This document shows, piece after piece, positions 41,366 through 52,927 of a stretch of 64,000 bases of DNA. This DNA comes from Fragilariopsis cylindrus CCMP1102 (Eukaryota; Bacillariophyta; Bacillariophyceae; Bacillariales; Bacillariaceae). Positions within the stretch are counted from its first letter, which is position 1. Every line of letters starts with the position of its first letter. The DNA is taken from positions 186,001-250,000 of the forward strand of contig FMBT01000335.1 of the NCBI GenBank assembly GCA_900095095.1. The letters are read 5' to 3'. Under the pieces are notes generated by a model. The model was not told where the DNA came from. It ran no database searches and worked only from the letters and a program-made list of their open reading frames with translations. The position numbers and the translations under genes are program-made.

Positions 41366-41999
41366 CTAGGCAAATCGGTTGGTGATGTCGGAGGAAAGGT
41401 AGTTGGAGAATCGGTTGGAGACGTAGTAGGTAGTAGGCGAATGAGTACTTTTGCATTTTTTCTTACATGTTGCTGGACAAGAATATTTAAATTTCTTTCC
41501 TCCAGTACCAGAGTTTCTTTTTACATCTTCTATTGACACGTTTTTTGGCAACCCATCCATCACATGTCATTTTGGAATTGCCTTTAAATTGGAATGAATC
41601 TGAATCTTCACATGGACCCCGTTCTGCTGTTGATGTCGTGAATGTATCCTTGCATTTGTCCTTACATGTTACTGGACAAAAGAATCTGAGTTTTTAACCG
41701 GTCCCAGGCTGATGCTTACTGCATCGCTTGACAGGTTTTTCTGCAACGAAATTATCACAAGTTTTAGTATCATCATCTTTAAAACAAAAGATAAGAGAAT
41801 TTTCACATTCACCACGTTCTTGAAAGGTCGGTGCGGTACTAGGCATCGCTTCTTGAAGCGCACGAAGAAGATTATTATTGCTGGCGCTCTGCCATAACGT
41901 TGATGTTGGTTTCGTTTCGCTTCGTTTCGCTTCGCTTTGAAGTGTTATTAGCATCAACATCAACAACGACAAGGCAAAGGTGAAGGATATGTTTTTCAT
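41366..41999 (-). pseudogene. Decayed secreted six-cysteine-module gene
   Basis: It starts with a good signal peptide (MKNISFTFALSLLMLMLI, then QSEA), followed by two modules of the type seen at 14662: CENSLIFCFKDDDTKTCDNF, then KPVKRC and LRFFCPVTCKDKC; and CEDSDSFQFKGNSKMTCDGW. It ends in SPTDSPTTFPPTSPTD repeats. The frame is broken by a TAA near 41695, where the module expects Lys, and by at least one shift around 41520-41580. A third locus of this family in the window. Confidence 0.7.
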
Positions 42000-42149
42000 A
42001 CTGATGCTAGTTTCTTGGTCGTAGGTAAGTTGAAATGGGACGGCGGTCTAGCAGAACAGATATATTGATCTTGTTCATTTTAAAAAAGACAAATCTTCAC
42101 ATCATCATCTAATCTGAAGACCTTGGGCTCGATCGGTCCTAGGACAAAT

Positions 42150-42931
42150 CCACCACAATACTGAATGGTCCTAGGACAAATCCACCACTATTTTCGACAA
42201 ATCCACCATTTCGCGCAAACCATTGGTGCGGGATTACTTGTTAAGAATTTACGTAATCTTGGACTTGAATCACATTGTCTAGAAGGATCACCAGAAGCAA
42301 GTGCACATTGGCCAACTACTCAGGACAACTACTCACAAACATATTATCATGTCGTTAATCTACTAACTGATCAGGCACGAGAGGTAATGCCAGTGACAGA
42401 TTATGTAGTTAGTTTTGAGGTAGCGGAACATATCCAACCATATTATACAGATAAGTTTATTGCATTACTTAGCATGCATAAACCAAAACGGATAATATTT
42501 GGTGCGGCGACTGTCGATCAGGATAGAGGATTAAATCCAACACATGTCAATGAAAGAGAATTTGATTATTGGATAAAGAAATTTAGTCATGCAGGATATG
42601 TAATTGATTTAGCAAAAACTGCAAAATTGAAACATGATATTATTACGGATCAAAATTTTATGATAGAATTTGGTAAATTATGGTTTTATCCCAAGAATAT
42701 ACTTGTTTTTGAAAGTCTTTCGTATACTACGAAAGAGGAACTGAATACAGCAAGAGAACAATTACCAGTACACGTGAATATGTTAGATCCTGTCTATACA
42801 CAATTGGGTTATAGTGATCGTTTAAATAGTGAAGAAAAGAGGCACCGGAATTCGGAAAAATGTGGGAACGTGATTGGACAGAATTTGGTAATTTGTTTCA
42901 TGCAAAGTCTGAGAGTGGTATGTATGAAGTG
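42150..42931 (+). pseudogene. 5'-truncated class I methyltransferase relic
   Basis: The frame encodes GAGLLVKNLRNLGLESHCLEG, DYVVSFEVAEHI and PKRIIFGAA, the SAM-binding half of a class I methyltransferase, but the first residues of motif I are missing and the leader is replaced by three ACAAATCCACCA repeats. Near 42840 the coherent frame changes (APEFGKMWERDWTEFGNLFH continues it), and the remaining coding sequence is cut by the terminal repeat of the 7.4-kb element. Substrate unknown. It could still be expressed as a fragment. Confidence 0.6.
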
Positions 42932-43004
42932 TAGGAGGTCGGTTCATCCCAAAAGAGCTTTTGGGGGAATCCAAAGGATCTTTGGGGGCACCCTAAAACC
43001 CCCA
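42932..43004 (+). repeat. Left terminal inverted repeat of the 7.4-kb element
   Basis: Pairs with 50287-50361. It contains an internal near-palindrome CCCAAAAGAGCTTTTGGG and two G-runs. Confidence 0.9.
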
Positions 43005-43049
43005 TTTCCGTTTCTTGAACTTTCAGTGTGATCACACCTATGTGGATAC

Positions 43050-43450
43050 TTTCATATGGTATGATCATACCTCGGGTATACTATCATATGGTATAATCAT
43101 ACCTCAGACAAACTATCATACGGTATGATCATACGTTGGGTCTGTACGCGTTGATTTCAAATATTTTCCACTGAACGCGTTGATTTCAAATATTTTCCAC
43201 GTACTTTTTCGAGCGATACGTTACGCGTAACGTATCGAACGTATCTGTACGCGTTGATTTCAAATATTTTCCACTGTACGCGTTGATTTCAAATATTTTC
43301 CACTGTAGTACGCGTTGATTTCAAATATTTTCTGGAATCGAGTAGGGACGCGTAACGTATTGCTCAAAAAACACGCGTTAAAATACTGGATTCCAGATGT
43401 GGCATTTTTGCCAACTTTGAAACCACGCGTTAAAATACTGGATAAAACTG
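43050..43450. repeat. Subterminal repeat array, candidate transposase-binding sites
   Basis: Three families are interleaved: three copies of a palindrome-like TCATATGGTATGATCATACC (about 43052-43135); five copies of ACGCGTTGATTTCAAATATT starting at 43146, 43175, 43249, 43278 and 43310; and two copies of ACGCGTTAAAATACTGGA (about 43374 and 43425). A 22-bp perfect palindrome centred on ACGCGT lies at 43215-43236. No equivalent array is seen at the right end. Confidence 0.8.
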
Positions 43451-44261
43451 GAGTTGACGTGATTGCGGATGTAAAATAACACTAGCAAATAAGAAGGAGA
43501 CACATCAACAAGTCAAACAACATCAAAAATGAATGAAGTAGTAAGGTAGGTACCTTGAGATGACGAATTCTCCTACTATTTGGGTGCTTAGAGAATACTA
43601 CAATGAATCAAATTTAGAACAACAGTGCATATAATGGTGATAGGTCTAGTTTAACAGCTATAATTAAATTCCGTTCCTTGCAAAATGTGTCGAATTTTTC
43701 CATTTTTTAAATTATTTTTCTCTCCGTATCTCAACAGCAACAACAACAACAACAACAACCACTAGTATTAATAGTGTAACAATCTTGGCAATGGTACTGT
43801 GGTGTTAAAATATTAGTTGAAGAAGCTAGCTTGCTGTGAAAAATGCCGATCTTCATCGTATGAGTCGTCATCGGAATCAAACTGGAGCTTTGAGGAAGGT
43901 AAATCAGTAACAGTGTCATCGTCAGTGTCATCATCTTCATTACTTTCATCACCATCATTGCTACCATTGCCATCGCTACTAGCAAAGGCCACTTTAGCTG
44001 CCCTAATGGGGGCTAGAAGAAATCTAAAATATCTTATAATCAAGTTAAAAATAGTTATTTGTTAATCCGAAGTATGTACTATAAAACTGCTTCAAATTTA
44101 ATAGTATTCACAACTGCTCCTTAGATGATCATTTTCAGAAAAAAATGATTTAATATCATCTATAAAAAATAAGCAACTGTGGTATGTGTAGCAGTAGTTC
44201 TATAACATGTAACAGCATCAGCGACAACAGTAGCATGAAGCTAAAACAAAATTCACTGATA
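43451..44261. other. Region between subterminal array and transposase 3' end
   Basis: A minus-strand ORF (44043-43813) encodes an acidic Ser/Asp stretch after a TTCTTCTAG acceptor-like site and could be an extra terminal exon. However, the good donor CAG/GTGAGA at 44289/44288 is in the wrong phase for it, so it is not joined here. Confidence 0.45.
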
Positions 44262-47200
44262 TTAACGGAGCCGGGATGATCTTCTCACCTGTGGTGGTGG
44301 TGGTGGCGGCGGCAGTGGTGGAGATGCTTCACTTCTTGATGCATCAGGTGGCAGTGTTGGTGTTGGTGATGGTGATGGTGTTGTTTTTGTTGGGCCTCGT
44401 TTACTAGCACGAGTTGTTGTTTTACATCTTGAATGATTTGTTCTTCTACGAGAACTAGTACAAGCACGTCTTGGTCTTCGTGAATATAATTCTTCATTGT
44501 CCGAAGAAGTAGCGTCCGAAGAAGTAGCAGCTTGCTGAGAGAACATTCTGATTAAAGGAGTTTTATTGAATGATACAGACTTTTTGTTACGAACACCTTC
44601 AATAAGCTTGTCAAGCTTGGCAGTATCATCAGTTTCGCTACCGCTGCCAGCAATACCACCTTGCTTGGTAACATTATCAGTTTCGCTACCGGCATCACCA
44701 CCACTTATCTCACTTTCAAGAATCATAAAATTGGTTCCGTCATCACTTATTTCATCATCATCAAGAAACAAACTAGTATCTGGATCGTTGACACTTAGTA
44801 CAATATTGTCGATGGAGTGATCAACAATAGAATTATCAATAATAGAAGTATTAGCAATTGAACCGTCAGCAATTGACAAATCCAAAGCACAGTCATCAGG
44901 ATTATATTCTTCCCCATATTCCTCTAGCTGCTTTAAATTACTCGTCTTAACAAAATTGATGGAAGCTTGTGTAATTGCCAATCCTGATAATGCTGCTCTG
45001 ATAGGAGGATTATTAAGCAACCTCGCTCGTCCTGCTACATCAAAAATTTTGAGTAAGTTTGTCAAGGCCTTCTTCTTCAATTTCTGTAGTTGAATTGTAG
45101 AATTGTCATTCCAGATATCCTCGTACTCATCTATAGAGGAAAAAGTTTGTATACATTTCAATCGACGTTTGCATGAAACAATTGCCTTCTTTCTCTTCTT
45201 CTCTGCGGCAGCTTCTTCTGTAGATATATCATTTAAATGCTGCTGGTCCATTTGTAGACTCTTTACGAATCCATCACTACCTCTTTTAACGCGATTGACT
45301 CGACCACCACGTCTTGTCTTCTTCTTTTCTTTTTGATTTGAATTACCAATAATGGTACGGCATATATTATCCATGACAAGCTGATTCATTGATGATGTAT
45401 TGTGACCATGGGCTGCAACTTTAATAGTGTGCGTTTCTGATCCGAGTTTAACTTTTTTGTGAGAGAGAAAGAGAGTGAGCGCCGAGAGAGAGAAACAAGA
45501 CAAAGCATAAATAAAAGTCAATAAAAAACTAACCTGTTACAATATGATTGCTAGGCTTCTCAATCTTCGCAATCATTCTAGACTCGAAATTGATAAAAGA
45601 TCTCTCTTCTGCAGGCAGTAAATTAAATGTATTGTACACTTCCTTTAAATCTGCTCTTCTCTCTTCTTCTGCTAGCACTTTTGCCATTCGCTTTATTATC
45701 ATTTCTTTTTCATTTCTTCTCCTTCTATCGGACCTATGCCCATTTTCAATTAATCTATTGTCTTTGGGAAACATATGATATGAAATATTGATTATATATT
45801 GTGCTTGTAACTGATCTGTTGTGAGCTGTACACTACTTGTACCATCAAAGATATTCCACATCTCGTGTTTATCCATCATTTGAGCTGTGTGCCATTTGTT
45901 TTGATTATTGCTTTCTTTTGGTTTTACTTGAAATCCTTCTGTCGGTTTTGCAAGAGTTAACATAGCATTCTGTTTCTTGTTTTCGTAGTTCTTATCAAGG
46001 AGTAACGAGTCTTCAGATTTTGGTTCTGCAGAAACGATCTGTACAATTTCCATATGCTGCAGTGCAACTTTCTCAACATCGGTTACAGCCCGAGGTCGCC
46101 AAGCTCTCTCACTTGATGGTTTCTCAATGTATTCATTGATAATTCCTTCTGCAACAGCATAACATTTTGCTTTTCCATGGTCAAGAACAGTTTTGCTGCC
46201 ATCAGATACAAGATTAGGAACAGCGTCGTTTAATAAGGAAGTATCAGATTCAGTAAAACTAGGGCATACATTATTATCTTTAGGACGAACGCCATAGTAC
46301 CGACAGCCACCATCTTCTTTAATTCGTAGACCATTAAAAGAAGCATACATTTCTAAATTTTCACGCCACCCATCTGAATATGGATTGGAAGGTTCCATCC
46401 CAGTTACCTTCCACGATTTTGTGGTTGAATTTGATCCTCTTGTCATGAGTTTTTTCCTCTCTCCCTCACGAAATAAATGAAATGCTTTTGCCATGACTCG
46501 ATTCGAATAAGAGATATCACTTTTGTTTCAAATGAACAGAAGAAAGAAAGGAGAAGGAGTAGGAATAGGAAATGAAAATGAGAGTAGACCAAAGCATAAT
46601 TTGACAGAAAGAGAATGGTGTATACTTACGTTTCTGTAGCAAAGAGCCTATCCATCAATGATGCTTCTTCCAGGCACTTATGAAGGAATAAAATAACACC
46701 ATTGTCTTGTGGCTGTACAACAATGGACAAATGTGAGGGAAAAAATACCGGTATGATACGGTTCTTGAATAGAAGATAGAGCGCTCTTGGATTCCATCGA
46801 GAGACATGACTATCAAGAAGGAGAAACGAATACAGTCCATTAGCACCTTGATCAGAAGCTATATTCTCAACTAGGTGTTCCACTGCAACCAAAAATAATT
46901 CTTTTGTCATACTACCGTTGATTGATGTGCATACTATGATCCCAAGATTCTTGTGTCGCTGAAATCCATCAGTATATTTATCATGTACTGGTGGTGTTTC
47001 CTGCTGCTCATAAAGTCCAATTCGTCTTTCAGCAGCAGATGAATTGCTTTTCTTTTTTGATTGTATTGAATGAATCACCATCTGCATTGGTGCACCTTCT
47101 ATTTTTGCTTTAGCGTCTTTATATTTACCATCACTTCTTGAGAACTGTGCAACTGAACAATGAACTGATGGACGATCTCCTTCTGGCGTTGATTGGAAGA

Positions 47201-48488
47201 TACGATGAATAATTTCCTGTGGTATCAATAGTAAATCACGAAACTTTGTCGGATCCGTTCCCATCTCGTCCATATTATATTTGAATTCAGCTCCAACTTC
47301 AGCCCAGTTTTTCCATGGACAATTTGTAGAATCAATGGTATGCAAAAGCATCACAACCTGATCTAGTCGAAAGAAGAGGGCGTCTCGGTTCTCTTCCGTT
47401 ACCTGGGATATACGGGCTGGATCAATATTCTTAACGTTCTTACATTCTAACTCATAGTTTTGGATAAAACGGTTGAGAGTTGATCGAGAAAATCTGCCAT
47501 CATTTGATCCATCCTTTAATGCCTCAACAAAGATTTGTTTTGCTGCTATTTTACCTATACCTTGACCGCACAAGGCTAACTGCTTTATCAAACAACGCAT
47601 GAAGAGTTCAAGCTCTACTGGTATAGCCTTTTCAGATGCTCCGTTTGCCTTGTTCTTAATACCATTTTTCTTTTTCTCATCTTCTTGCCATCTATTGTAT
47701 GCTACGATTGCCGGTGCTACTGACTTTTGCTGAAGTTTCATTAGTCCAAGACCACTATCTTTCCAATGTGTTTGTATTCCTTTCTTATTAGCTAGTCGCC
47801 CTTTGTCTCTGATGAATGTCAATAATTTGATTCCATCAGTAGTTAAATAGAATTCAAACAACAGATCCTTCATTTCGTAGTCTTTTAGTTTTTTTGTTGG
47901 TGGTGATTTCTTCTTTATCTCCTCTTCCTCCCCATCATTGTCATTATCATCATCAAGGACGTCTATTACTTCAACGTCCCCATCACCATCACCATCATCA
48001 TCATCAGTACCAGCATCAACATTGACATCATTATCTACAGTAGTAGTATCATCAGCGTCAGCGTCAGCGTCAGCGTCAGCATCAGCATCAGCATCAGCAT
48101 CAGCATCAGCATCAGCATTGTCGAGATCGTCATAAATTGCAAATCCTGATCCGTGCGATGTTGATCCATTGAGTTGCTTTTGTTTACAAAGACCGCCCTT
48201 CCATTTACAGAACCAGAAATCATACTGTATTTTAGCATCAGCATATGGAACATTTGTTTTCTTTAATTCTCTCAGCCCACTCCTGTCCCATCTTTTTCGA
48301 AACTTATCCCTGCTCAAGTTGTTGTCTTCAAGGAAAGAACGCTGTGATTTGTTTGACATATAGAATGCAAAGATGAAAGAACGCAACCCAGATTCATCAA
48401 GTTCTATATTCTTGCTTTTCTTTTTTGTTGTTTTTGGTTGGTTGGTGGCATCTTTCAATACCGTCTTCTTTGAACGATGCCGCACCAT
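44262..48488 (-). CDS. DD35D (pogo/Tigger-like) transposase, three exons
   Basis: Exons 48488-46630, 46519-45534 and 45451-44262 join in frame (introns 110 and 82 bp, GTAAGT...AAAAG and GTTAGT...AAAAG) to give 1,344 codons. Residues 31-98 and 201-270 are two copies of one helical module (FxFY...W..SGL..LK...Y..W) separated by an (Ala-Asp)n run and an acidic tract. Catalytic Asp candidates are D407 (YNMDEMG), D559 (LLLDSHVS) and D595 (VQPQDNG), with 35 residues between the last two. PSHLSIVVQPQDNGV is typical of the pogo/jerky group. Exons 2-3 form a long C-terminal extension with basic and acidic tracts of unknown role. The 3' end is uncertain, because a strong donor CAG/GTGAGA lies 27 bases before the stop. 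Expected to cut and paste its own element. Confidence 0.8.
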
Positions 48489-49080
48489 CTTAGTCTTGTT
48501 GTAGTCGTTATGCGAATATCACAACGAGTGGTGGATTGATGGCAAATTGAAACAAACATGAAGAGAAGCACTGCCTGGAGTGGAATGATTTCTCACTCAC
48601 ATGCTAATATTTTTGAATTTGAATTGATAATGGATCAATACATTCCAGGTTTTGGTGGGATGTTGAGTTGAAGATTTCATAACGCCATGTCGAGAAACAG
48701 TATGCACTCACACTTCACACAAAATTTGGTCAGCTGGAGTGTCACCTCGTGTGGAAAATTTATGGTTACTTAGAAGAAGTGCGCAATCCAAGCATTTGAG
48801 CGCCCAGTTTGAATAGGAAATGTCTAATTTTATGACAAAAAAAAAACGGGATTGCGCCTACCAGTCCTGTCTAGTCCCACTTCATTTTTTTATATGATTT
48901 CTTTCTTGTCACGCCGTGGTAATTTCTTTTCTTTTTCATAACACCGAACCTGGGAAATGAACTTTTTCGCACAACATTAACACAACAACAAGACATAAAA
49001 AAAAGTATTTACAATTCTTATTGGATTACTTATTTACAATCTCCACCCATTATATAACAACAGCAACAACACCAGCAACC
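48489..49080. promoter_or_regulatory. Divergent promoter region of the 7.4-kb element
   Basis: This 592-bp non-coding spacer lies between the transposase start (minus) and the accessory gene start (plus), so it must hold both promoters. No specific site can be assigned. Confidence 0.5.
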
Positions 49081-50028
49081 ATGTCACTCTTATCTGTCTC
49101 TAATGGGACTGTCAGAGAATTGTTCAACGGCAGTGCAAAGTTTGGACGTCCATCCAATAAAGCAGGAGCAGGATGGATTGTTACTGCAGGCAAAGGGAAT
49201 GCTATCATTCAAGAACAGACCATTAACGATGAAAGTACCAGTGCTAATTCCAGTGCCGTTGTTGTTGTCCGCTGGACAAACTATTTGAAAGCTGATGGAA
49301 TGAATGGTCGTATCCTTCTAGGACTTCCTATTCGTCGTCAGCATGATACTGTTTATTTCAAAACATCATCAACAACAACCCTTGGCGGTAACCGGCACAA
49401 GGCTCCATTCTTTTTCAAGTTTGAAACAGTAGATGAAGCTGAAGAGTTTGAAGCATTATGGCTTTTGAAGAATGGTTCAATTGCATCGTGGAAGGCTGAC
49501 AACGAAGCCAAGAAAAAGGCAGGCAGTAACAGCATCAACCTGCCACTTCAAGAGACAACAAATGCTGTATCAACTCCTGCCCGTAAGAAGAGAAAAGCAG
49601 TCCCAATGATTGATGACCGTCCATTACGTAAGAAGAAATTGGTATGCATCAATGATGGCATTGATTGCAGCAATGATGTTGAAAATCAATCAGTTTTTTT
49701 ACGGCACGATGGTATTGCAGATGATTCTGTTGGTGCTTTCAAGGCACTTGGGTTGATGCCTACTGAGGTAAATATAAATGGTAAAGTGAGAAAGATTGTA
49801 AAAGTGAAACGTTCTGCTTTGAAATCAATTGAAGAAACTTCAACCTTGACTAATTTGAATTTGAATGAGGATGAGGATGGAATTGATTTGAAGGATGATG
49901 ACAACAGCAATGATTTGAATGAAGATGACAAGGACCAGTCGAACGAAGGATCTACTGAAGGCATCATCGTTGACGAAGAAGATGCGCCTCAGTCTCAAAA
50001 CTGGAAGACTGCTTTTGCTTCTTATTAG
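49081..50028 (+). CDS. Accessory protein of the 7.4-kb element, unknown
   Basis: 315 residues from the ATG at 49081 (context CAACCATGTC). The frame stays open upstream to 49021, but this ATG is the first good start. The N-terminal half looks globular (VRWTNYLKADGMNGRILLG, FFFKFETVDEAEEFEALWLL); two basic nuclear-signal-like clusters (ARKKRKAVP, RPLRKKKL) follow; the C-terminus is acidic Asp/Asn-rich. No known domain is recognised. Its position inside the terminal repeats and divergence from the transposase suggest an element-encoded nuclear factor, perhaps DNA binding or regulatory. This is inference. Confidence 0.65.
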   Translation: MSLLSVSNGTVRELFNGSAKFGRPSNKAGAGWIVTAGKGNAIIQEQTINDESTSANSSAVVVVRWTNYLKADGMNGRILLGLPIRRQHDTVYFKTSSTTTLGGNRHKAPFFFKFETVDEAEEFEALWLLKNGSIASWKADNEAKKKAGSNSINLPLQETTNAVSTPARKKRKAVPMIDDRPLRKKKLVCINDGIDCSNDVENQSVFLRHDGIADDSVGAFKALGLMPTEVNINGKVRKIVKVKRSALKSIEETSTLTNLNLNEDEDGIDLKDDDNSNDLNEDDKDQSNEGSTEGIIVDEEDAPQSQNWKTAFASY

Positions 50029-50870
50029 TGAAGATATATAAAGAACTGTGTGTCTACCGTAATTGATACTGCAAAAGTGAAGGCAATATTAATAATTATT
50101 ATTACTATCAAAAAATCTAAAATAGTTAAATTTCTTATCTGCAACAATGATACTGACATTGTCCAATATAGCATTTTTTCTACTTTTTTTTAATCTCTAT
50201 CATTGTAGATTACTTATAGTATATAGAAAGAATACTATATGACAATATTTTTCTATTCCTAAACTCTTATATTTTTCTTTAAAGAATTTGGGGTTTTTAG
50301 GGTGCCCCCAAAGATCCTATGGATTCCCCCAAAAGCTCTTTTGGGATGAACCGACCTCCTATGCATAAAATGTATATATATATATATTTTCGGTAGCGAC
50401 AACAAATATAGAGTATCAATCAACCAATCAATCTATCACCCATGCACTAGCAATGTAGATATAAATCCTACTGTATCGAATAGAATAATTGGGTTAGCCA
50501 TGTTTGAACCGGCATATCCTATGCTAGTTTTTGAAACGTGAACCAACGAACTATAGACATGATCAAGAAGAAAGGCAATAATAGATATAACCGTACTACT
50601 AGGTGTATCTAATAATAATGATATAGGACTATACTTCGAATTTCACTAATATAAGTTTACTATTTCTCTAAACTAACGCTACTCTCCTATCCCATCTTCT
50701 TTTACTTATCATATTTTATTAAACCTTCAAAAAATTGTGAATATGAATGATGTGCTATACAAATACGATGTATTGTATTGTATGTATTTATGAATGGCGT
50801 AATGTAAATTCTTTGCTGTTGTTGCTGTACCAAAAATTGTTATGAATGAATTAATGCATCTTTATTATTT
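50029..50870. other. 3' region of accessory gene, right TIR and flank
   Basis: AT-rich with no ORF. The right terminal repeat lies at 50287-50361; beyond it is ordinary spacer up to the 3' end of the MYB gene. No continuation of the methyltransferase relic could be recognised right of the element. Confidence 0.5.
50287..50361 (-). repeat. Right terminal inverted repeat of the 7.4-kb element
   Basis: Reverse complement of 42932-43004 with one clear mismatch in the first 65 bp. Confidence 0.9.
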
Positions 50871-52927
50871 TTACCGATTGTGTTGTGATGCTTTTACTTG
50901 TTTCAATTCGTATTCGAGTGCTTGGCGTTTTACACGTTCCCGTTCTAATTGTGAATTCAATTCTAGTATTGCACGATGTTGATCAGTCAGTACACCCGTT
51001 TGTCTTGATAAGGATTCTGTTACTGTATGGTATCGTAATTCTGATTCTGTTAATCGTGCTTGCATCAATTCAGTATTTGCACCCCGTGTTGCTGCTGCCA
51101 TTAATGCCGATGAGTTATTCCCAGTCTGTTCAAACAACATTACCATACGACGTAATTCAGTTTTTAATTGTGCGTTGATTTCCTGTAAATTCTTACATTC
51201 ATTCAATGCCACACGACGATCCGTAATTGCCTCCATAATACGACTATCACTTTCAATGTTTTGTTGTTGTAATGCAAGTATCGTATGGTTTAAATTCTTT
51301 ACCTCTTGACGTAAACGTAAAAATTCTTGTCGTTCCGCAACAGCTTGTAATTTTTCTATTACATCCCTCTGATCCATCGTATCTTGTACAGCACCAGCAC
51401 CATATCGATTGGATGTACCATCATTAAGTTTCATCTTCTTGTGTTGCTGTTGCTGCTGACCTTGAAGTTGCTGTTGAAGTTGCTGCTGTTGTAGCTGTAG
51501 ATGAAGTCGCTGTTGCTGCTCATGGTGAACTTGTGCCGCGTTGGCGGCATGATACGACGATCCAACCCTAGCTGCGACGACATGTTGGTCTTGTTGGTGT
51601 TGATGCTGTTCTTCTCGTTTTTGTTTTGCTAATGCTGCATGATGAGCTAATACTGATGCAGCATCTGTTTCGTTTTCTGCTTGCGCAACCGCTTCTTTCG
51701 CGGCATTAATATCACTGCTATTACTACCGCTACCACCAGCATTTTTGGCACTTGCAGCAGCATCAGCATCATTCGCAATCTTCTTGCGTAATTCAGCGAC
51801 AGCCTTGTCGAGGGAACTTTCATATTGATTATACATTGTATGATCTTCAATACCACGAACACCCATACCAACACCAATATTTTCGGTAATAGCAGCTTGA
51901 GCTAAAACTTCCATACCTGTCAAGCCGGTATTGTTATCACGAAGTCCATCGGGACCCCAGAATTGTTTAATTTGTTGGTTTTTGTTACCGCCGCGGCCAC
52001 CGCCGCCGCCGCCACCATCATCATCTTCGTCGTCAGATTCATCATCAACAATGACACCAGACGTTACTGGTATGATACGACTTGGATGAATGGGTGTACC
52101 TCCACCACCATATCCTGTAATAATTGCTGATGAACCTGTTTTAATATTTGAATTTAAATGATGATCGGCACCGATTAACATTTTACTTTTCTTTCGTGCA
52201 TAACCACCCCCACCCCCACTTCCACCTCCACCACCACCATTACCTGATTCACCACGAACGCCGTTAGTAGAAGAATCGTTAATCGGTTTTTGTAATGCAA
52301 TAAAGTACTTTTGAGCATGTGTACGGATTTGTGTGCATGATCGTGTACCGACCATCTCTGTAATCTTCTTCCAATTACCGGTTCTGTATGCGAAAGGAAA
52401 GGACATAGAAACAGAGATAGATTGTTGTTAGATAAGTATCGTTAGTATCTCGATAGAGAATAGAAATGGCGATCGATCTAATCCCTGCTGCCTCCTCCTC
52501 CTCCTCCTGATGTTGTAGTGTTTTATCTTTAGGGGATGGTGCACGATATACGCGACATCAAAGAGCAGCAGCTATTATTATAATTTTAGAATATAGAGTA
52601 AGAAAGAGACACTTACCCAAATTGATCTAATCCGGCTAAAAATCTTTTGTGTTCTTCAGCGGCCCACCGTCCTGTATTCAAACCGTCGTTGTTATCACTA
52701 TCTCCACCATTACCACCACCACCACCTTTATTGTTACTATCATTGCTCTTCATATTTTCATCACCATTCCTTTTTCTGTTACTCATATTATTGTTGGTAT
52801 CAGAATGGATACTATTGGTTTCACTATTACTACCACCACCATAAGTAAGACTTTGTCTACGAAGTGCAGCAACGATATGATTTTTATGATCGAGACGATG
52901 ATCTCTTGTTCTATTATCCATTTCCAT
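50871..52927 (-). CDS. SHAQKYF-type (one-repeat) MYB transcription factor
   Basis: Exon 1 52927-52617, intron 52616-52384 (GTAAGT...ACAG, phase 2), exon 2 52383-50871; 607 codons. The single MYB repeat spans the intron: GRWAAEEHKRFLAGLDQFG, then TGNWKKITEMVGTRSCTQIR and THAQKYF (the family normally has SHAQKYF), at about residues 85-130. Gly/Asp-rich and Gln/His-rich low-complexity regions follow. The C-terminal 160 residues are coiled-coil-like (EKLQAVAERQEFLRLRQEVK, LNSQLERERVKRQALEYEL), suited to dimerisation. A nuclear DNA-binding factor; plant relatives bind GATA-like boxes, but the target here is unknown. Confidence 0.85.

Follow-up and report, generated by a model that had tools for sequence, protein, structure and literature searches.

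The window analysed here is a stretch of 64,000 nucleotides from Fragilariopsis cylindrus CCMP1102 (contig FMBT01000335.1, positions 186,001 to 250,000 of the forward strand), and positions are counted from its first letter. A 7,430-bp unit lies at 42932-50361, in which 73-nt inverted ends enclose a spliced transposase gene and a second, divergent gene. The coordinates of its features are collected in Table 1.

The element and its transposase gene

The two terminal arms (42932-43004 and 50289-50361) are 97% complementary, with 71 of 73 positions identical, and TA is present at the start of each. The longest exact inverted match in 41501-52000 was 42 nt, compared with a maximum of 18 nt across 50 shuffles of the sequence. 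The first TA of the left repeat is presumed to be the target-site duplication. When the flanks were joined at one TA, the host frame closed naturally (..GMYEVYA*).

The transposase gene was assembled from three minus-strand exons, which join to give 1,344 residues with zero internal stops. Both junctions were set by GT..AG together with the reading frame. At the intron 1 donor the unspliced codons read ACG TAA and stop immediately. The catalytic triad consists of D407, D559 and D595, a DD35D arrangement. An extra exon after position 44288 was also tried; one acceptor led to a stop, and the frame opened by the other ended in low-complexity sequence. Because the aligned relatives favour neither version, the gene was taken to stop at 44262.

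The modelled structure of the catalytic region resembles Mos1, with a predicted RNase H-like DDE/D core, and helices are present in the model at residues 61-141. A search of solved-structure sequences gave zero matches for the transposase of the second element described below (E2) or for the E2 transposase alignment.

A sequence-only reading of this DNA had proposed a large two-gene pogo-like transposon with near-identical terminal inverted repeats of about 70 bp, TA borders, an intact spliced DD35D transposase of about 1,344 residues and a divergent accessory gene. The measurements bear out each of these parts, and the proposal as a whole is supported by the same gene pair in E2, by short copies sharing the terminal signature, by a DDE_1 match and by the Mos1-like model.

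Second element, short copies and relatives

The 67.9-Mb assembly was searched with exon 1. One other long relative was found, 59% identical over exon 1, on contig C297. It belongs to E2 (C297:263654-270338), an element of 6,685 bp with a transposase of 1,327 residues; 70-nt repeats of its own, 99% complementary to each other, delimit it, and TA is present at each end. A relative of the second gene lies divergent from the E2 transposase gene, with an intergenic region of 600 bp compared with 592 bp in the window element. The terminal repeats of the two elements share the start TAGGAGGNCGGTTC and then differ. Between the two elements, the proportions of synonymous and nonsynonymous differences (pS/pN) were 0.698/0.264 for the transposase, with a synonymous divergence (dS) of 2.0, and 0.501/0.202 for the second gene, with a dS of 0.83. 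Both genes thus evolved under purifying selection and were kept functional during the divergence of the elements.

The E2 transposase gene is an uninterrupted frame with neither intron, so that the introns, which had been read as a feature of the lineage, are not common to all of it. In the alignment the E2 protein is continuous across both junctions (ETDISYSN; SNHTVTVQLG), exactly where the window exons join, and this single open frame through both sites supports the splice model. Other relatives also align unbroken at both window junctions.

The 14-base end pattern TAGGAGGNCGGTTC has five exact occurrences in the assembly, four of which mark the termini of the window element and E2; the same pattern read backwards, used as a control, has three. 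The fifth occurrence (C411) opens a 236-bp unit with inverted repeats of the same kind. Its end, used as a query, matched nine loci including C411 itself; eight were inspected and C449, at a contig end, was left out. Five of the eight (C411, C788, C642, C90 and C689) are complete, 178-242 bp long and bounded by TAGGAG..CTCCTA, all with TA ends, and C70, C809 and C674 have one end recognisable at the tolerance used. These short units appear to be non-autonomous copies that are closer to E2 than to the element in the window.

In the protein searches, scoring was confined to the 7,993 and 7,987 candidates with the most words in common. The first search, with the transposase, gave at least 18 relatives including E2, of which 12 are 1,159-1,478 residues long; one (P0005) is from Pseudo-nitzschia arenysensis. 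A profile search gave at least 37, 21 of them new. Nineteen of these 21 end exactly four residues past the motif RLF, P0067 ends two residues later and P0074 is a different fragment. The end point of the shortened proteins is the intron 1 donor of the window gene, and the simplest reading is that they share intron 1 and that their open reading frame (ORF) calls stop there; P0054-P0073 are database protein entries, for which an intron is deduced from the protein ends. P0059 is the window's own transposase gene with small differences. The tandem CATCAG-type repeats at 48050-48121 in exon 1 encode a D/A run, at which P0059, otherwise nearly identical, departs from the window protein.

A tree of 38 proteins and 316 columns, covering relatives of this transposase family only, was rooted on P0018; P0015 and P0017 (fused or fragmentary) were dropped beforehand. 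In this tree the window protein and E2 group with 20 shortened proteins in one clade (support 95), inside which E2 is nested (support 98). This nesting makes a single gain of intron 1, followed by its loss in E2, the most likely history. A recent gain in the window copy, which had been considered, was dropped in view of the shortened relatives and the tree.

No relative was confirmed in viral contigs scanned with the transposase alignment, the second protein and P0018, nor in prokaryote genome contigs. Two relatives, P0067 and P0068, carry an additional cysteine-rich stretch before the catalytic region that looks PHD- or zinc-finger-like by eye. P0015 also contains an aldehyde dehydrogenase domain and is probably a chimeric contig or gene call.

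The second gene and the left subterminal module

Residues ~9-131 of the second protein are predicted from a model and its structure matches to be pleckstrin-homology (PH)-like, a beta barrel capped by a C-terminal helix. RanBD and EVH1 structure matches tied, the mean predicted local distance difference test (pLDDT) score of the whole model was 53.7, and the predicted fold is described here as a PH fold of RanBD/EVH1 type. Beyond this part, a basic KRKA..KKK motif is followed by an acidic stretch and, at the C-terminus, by a conserved APQSQNWxTAFASY; a conserved FKTSSTTT motif is particular to this protein family.

The second protein is 7-15% identical to Ran-binding and EVH1 domain proteins among the 50 matches listed. 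The Ran_BP1 profile matched two of 32 second-protein members only (best E 0.016); its curated cut-off was not reached, and the window protein was not among the matches. A search of solved-structure sequences with the second protein returned only a designed protein (E 5.3), and no RanBD/EVH1-type transposon protein was described in the literature searched. EVH1 domains bind proline-rich peptides. Binding of the second protein to the proline-rich end of the transposase was considered and dropped, as several relatives have no proline run.

The left subterminal module (43046-43984) is common to at least 11 loci without its terminal repeats (C518, C52, C733, C412, C337, C178, C31, C195, C407, C303 and C265), and ~520 bp of it is 88-90% identical to C265 and C407/C303. 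Two repeats similar to its 32-bp repeats start ~105 bp from one end of E2; they lie on the second-gene side in E2 and on the transposase side in the window element. The module may have been passed between elements as a regulatory unit, or it may be host DNA that was captured.

Table 1. Features of the 7,430-bp unit at 42932-50361.
Feature	Positions	Strand	Remarks
Left terminal inverted repeat	42932..43004	+	73 nt, begins TAGGAGGTCGGTTC
Three 32-bp subterminal repeats	43046..43141	+	Start ~115 bp from element end
Remainder of left subterminal module	43142..43984	+	ACGCGTTGATTTCAAATATTTTCCAC repeats, CGCGTTAAAATACTGG pair, about 520 bp; common to other loci
Transposase exon 3	44262..45451	-	Conserved up to ~residue 1,110-1,150, then low-complexity tail; stop TAA
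Intron 2	45452..45533	-	82 bp, GTTAGT..AAAAAAG
Transposase exon 2	45534..46519	-	Conserved C-terminal half
Intron 1	46520..46629	-	110 bp, GTAAGT..AAAAG, phase 2
Transposase exon 1	46630..48488	-	N-terminal part, acidic linker, DD35D catalytic region
Catalytic D595 codon (QPQDNG)	46704..46706	-	Position calculated from exon start
Catalytic D559 codon (LLLDSH)	46812..46814	-	Position calculated from exon start
Catalytic D407 codon (NMDEMG)	47268..47270	-	Position calculated from exon start
Divergent intergenic region	48489..49080		592 bp (600 bp in E2); presumed promoter region
Second gene	49081..50028	+	Single frame, 315 residues
Right terminal inverted repeat	50289..50361	-	71/73 identical to left arm; ends in TA

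Further observations were made around the element and at loci sharing the module. The element breaks a host ORF at 42165-42930 immediately ahead of its final codons; this ORF has a weak Methyltransf_12 match (E 0.0074) and an apparent frameshift close to its end. At C265:461325-470300, beside the module, there is a cluster of minus-strand ORFs (722, 334, 311, 286 and 222 residues); the 722-residue ORF has no Pfam match, and the cluster is possibly another large mobile element, for which no terminal repeats were found. C518, C52, C412 and C337 carry four copies ~98% identical over ~2.8 kb adjoining the module. An ORF in these copies resembles, by eye, a RusA-type resolvase.

Interpretation and placement

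We consider it highly probable that the unit, which its DDE_1 match marks as pogo-like, is an autonomous cut-and-paste transposon of the IS630-Tc1-mariner group with an unusually large two-gene form. The basis is the paired repeats with TA, the intact DD35D transposase, the gene pair in two elements and the short copies. Recognition of the repeats, whether terminal or subterminal, may be the task of the N-terminal helical part; the DD35D core would carry out excision and insertion at TA, and the long C-terminal half, which is conserved, could function in assembly or regulation. The second protein, which is probably nuclear and has a predicted PH-type binding domain, may be a cofactor or regulator of the transposase.

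The following observations weigh against this interpretation. The window's own terminal repeat had no other occurrence in the assembly, and an empty allele sought with both flanks returned the occupied site only. The window element and E2 are each single copy in the assembly, and no movement of the window element was observed. Confidence in the transposase model is modest (mean pLDDT 61), and Foldseek alone gave nothing below E 0.001 with it. In a profile comparison with one strong DDE_1 protein (a single sequence from the same genome) the catalytic region was unaligned. The second gene also occurs solo, at C68, C694, C511, C414, C411 and C295 and as a fragment at C717, and tblastn (E up to 0.001) detected no related transposase in ~10-17 kb around these copies; the cofactor role is weakened by these solo copies. 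Two proteins named as F. cylindrus match the second gene, and none so named matches the transposase, among the matches listed, few of which are named. Terminal repeats absent elsewhere, together with the two genes found separately as host genes, had been put forward as a refutation; this outcome was seen in part, in the unique repeat sequence of the window element and the solo second gene, but diverged repeats flank the same gene pair in E2.

A rather doubtful alternative is that the transposon is real but has trapped the second gene from the host, as a passenger with no role in transposition. Its solo copies and the species-named matches fit such a passenger. Two of the six solo copies look like duplicates or haplotypes by sequence: C694 of C68 (about 97-98% identical over the longest pieces) and C295 of C414 (84-89%). 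The dS of the second gene is lower than that of the transposase, and its history may differ; the solo pair C68/C694 (pS 0.025, pN 0.012), which is too similar to judge constraint, allows for constraint outside the element. Against a passenger, the divergent arrangement and a near-equal intergenic length are kept in two strongly diverged elements, between which the second gene is constrained, whereas the solo pair C414/C295 (pS 0.117, pN 0.111) has drifted without constraint, as relics would. No convincing pair of terminal repeats was found flanking the solo copies; a 49-bp inverted repeat around the C414 copy resembled, on inspection, pieces of another dispersed repeat.

The DDE_1 match and the Mos1-like model of the catalytic region identify a pogo-like element of the IS630-Tc1-mariner group, whose place may be within pogo or beside it. 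The DDE_1 profile (PF03184; cut-off 22) scored 23.1 bits with window exon 1 and 30.4 bits with E2, and was found in 17 of the 18 relatives of the first search set, E2 included. The TA ends of the window element, E2 and the five short copies are a feature of IS630-Tc1-mariner. Other DDE_1 transposase-like ORFs of different types occur in the same genome (C379, C531, C679, C363, C690 and C307), one with a frame of 873 residues.

The comparisons that follow refer to excerpts of the papers cited. Pogo elements measure 1.2-5.2 kb, encode transposases of 300-977 residues with a triad spacing of DD29-56D, and comprise the families Passer, Tigger, pogoR, Lemi, Mover and Fot/Fot-like (Gao et al., 2020; PMC7386202); the limits assumed in the sequence-only reading were thus too narrow, and the window element is still larger. 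DDE_1, TA target duplications, terminal inverted repeats and DD35D, the last as in Passer and Fot/Fot-like, are shared with pogo, and stramenopile hosts are reported there for Passer, Mover and Fot-like (PMC7386202). DD35D groups of pogo were also described by Dupeyron et al. (2020; PMC7325037). The elements here differ from that account of pogo (PMC7386202) in size (7.4 and 6.7 kb), in transposase length (1,344 and 1,327 residues), in a conserved second gene other than a transposase, in repeats of 70-73 bp, which fall between the published length classes, and in that no CENP-B_N/HTH_Tnp_Tc5/psq motif was detected. Mover, a pogo family of red algae and Chromista, has DD36D rather than DD35D, and hmmscan likewise detects no DNA-binding motif in it (PMC7386202).

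Additional ORFs beside that of the transposase also occur in the ciliate elements TBE and Tec (three ORFs each), which belong to the wider Tc1/mariner group; TBE repeats, at ~80 bp, are of similar length, but both have DD34E and Tec repeats measure ~700 bp (PMC7325037). KolobokP is likewise a eukaryotic DDD/E transposon with a second protein gene; it belongs to another superfamily, its second protein is a His-Me finger nuclease and it has long terminal direct repeats (PMC9587614). No description of this two-gene element or family was found in the literature searched.

That the elements form a separate IS630-Tc1-mariner superfamily, with an incidental DDE_1 match, is unlikely, a little more so than a passenger second gene. 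The element size and transposase length beyond the published pogo range (PMC7386202) and the unaligned catalytic region in the profile comparison would favour it. So would the failure of CENP-B_N, HTH_Tnp_Tc5 and psq to match any of the 18 transposase members at E up to 1; one weak HTH_28 match (E 0.32) was seen among them. On the other side, DDE_1 exceeds its curated cut-off in both elements and is found in nearly all members, DD35D and TA duplications are pogo features (PMC7386202, PMC7325037), and in Mover, a described pogo family, hmmscan also detects no DNA-binding motif (PMC7386202).

Less probable again is a bolder proposal, in which a distinct giant two-gene lineage in diatoms, possibly its own superfamily beside pogo, would be moved by the 1,300-residue transposase together with a nuclear tether or regulator of RanBD/EVH1 fold, with intron 1 as a switch. 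The switch is suggested by the place of intron 1, directly downstream of the catalytic domain, and by the immediate in-frame stop that its donor creates: splicing would yield the whole transposase, and a message that keeps the intron would encode a protein with the catalytic half alone. The P element has a regulated intron, to which this idea may be likened.

Two host genes, for example a domesticated transposase and a neighbour, lying between chance or secondary inverted repeats, would suit the single copies, the unseen empty allele and the conservation of both genes over a long divergence, but are very improbable: in two unrelated places this gene pair is flanked by repeats with TA, there are short copies whose ends are related, and the arm identity is far above chance.

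On the preferred reading of a large two-gene pogo-like transposon, transposases of more than 1,300 residues, a conserved second protein and short copies widen the known range of the pogo-like group, for which the excerpted survey gives maxima of 5.2 kb and 977 residues (PMC7386202). The predicted fold of the second protein is linked elsewhere to protein docking, and the need for a dedicated partner protein in some cut-and-paste transposons becomes testable. Intron 1 probably exemplifies an intron found throughout a clade of transposons except for a single member that has lost it.

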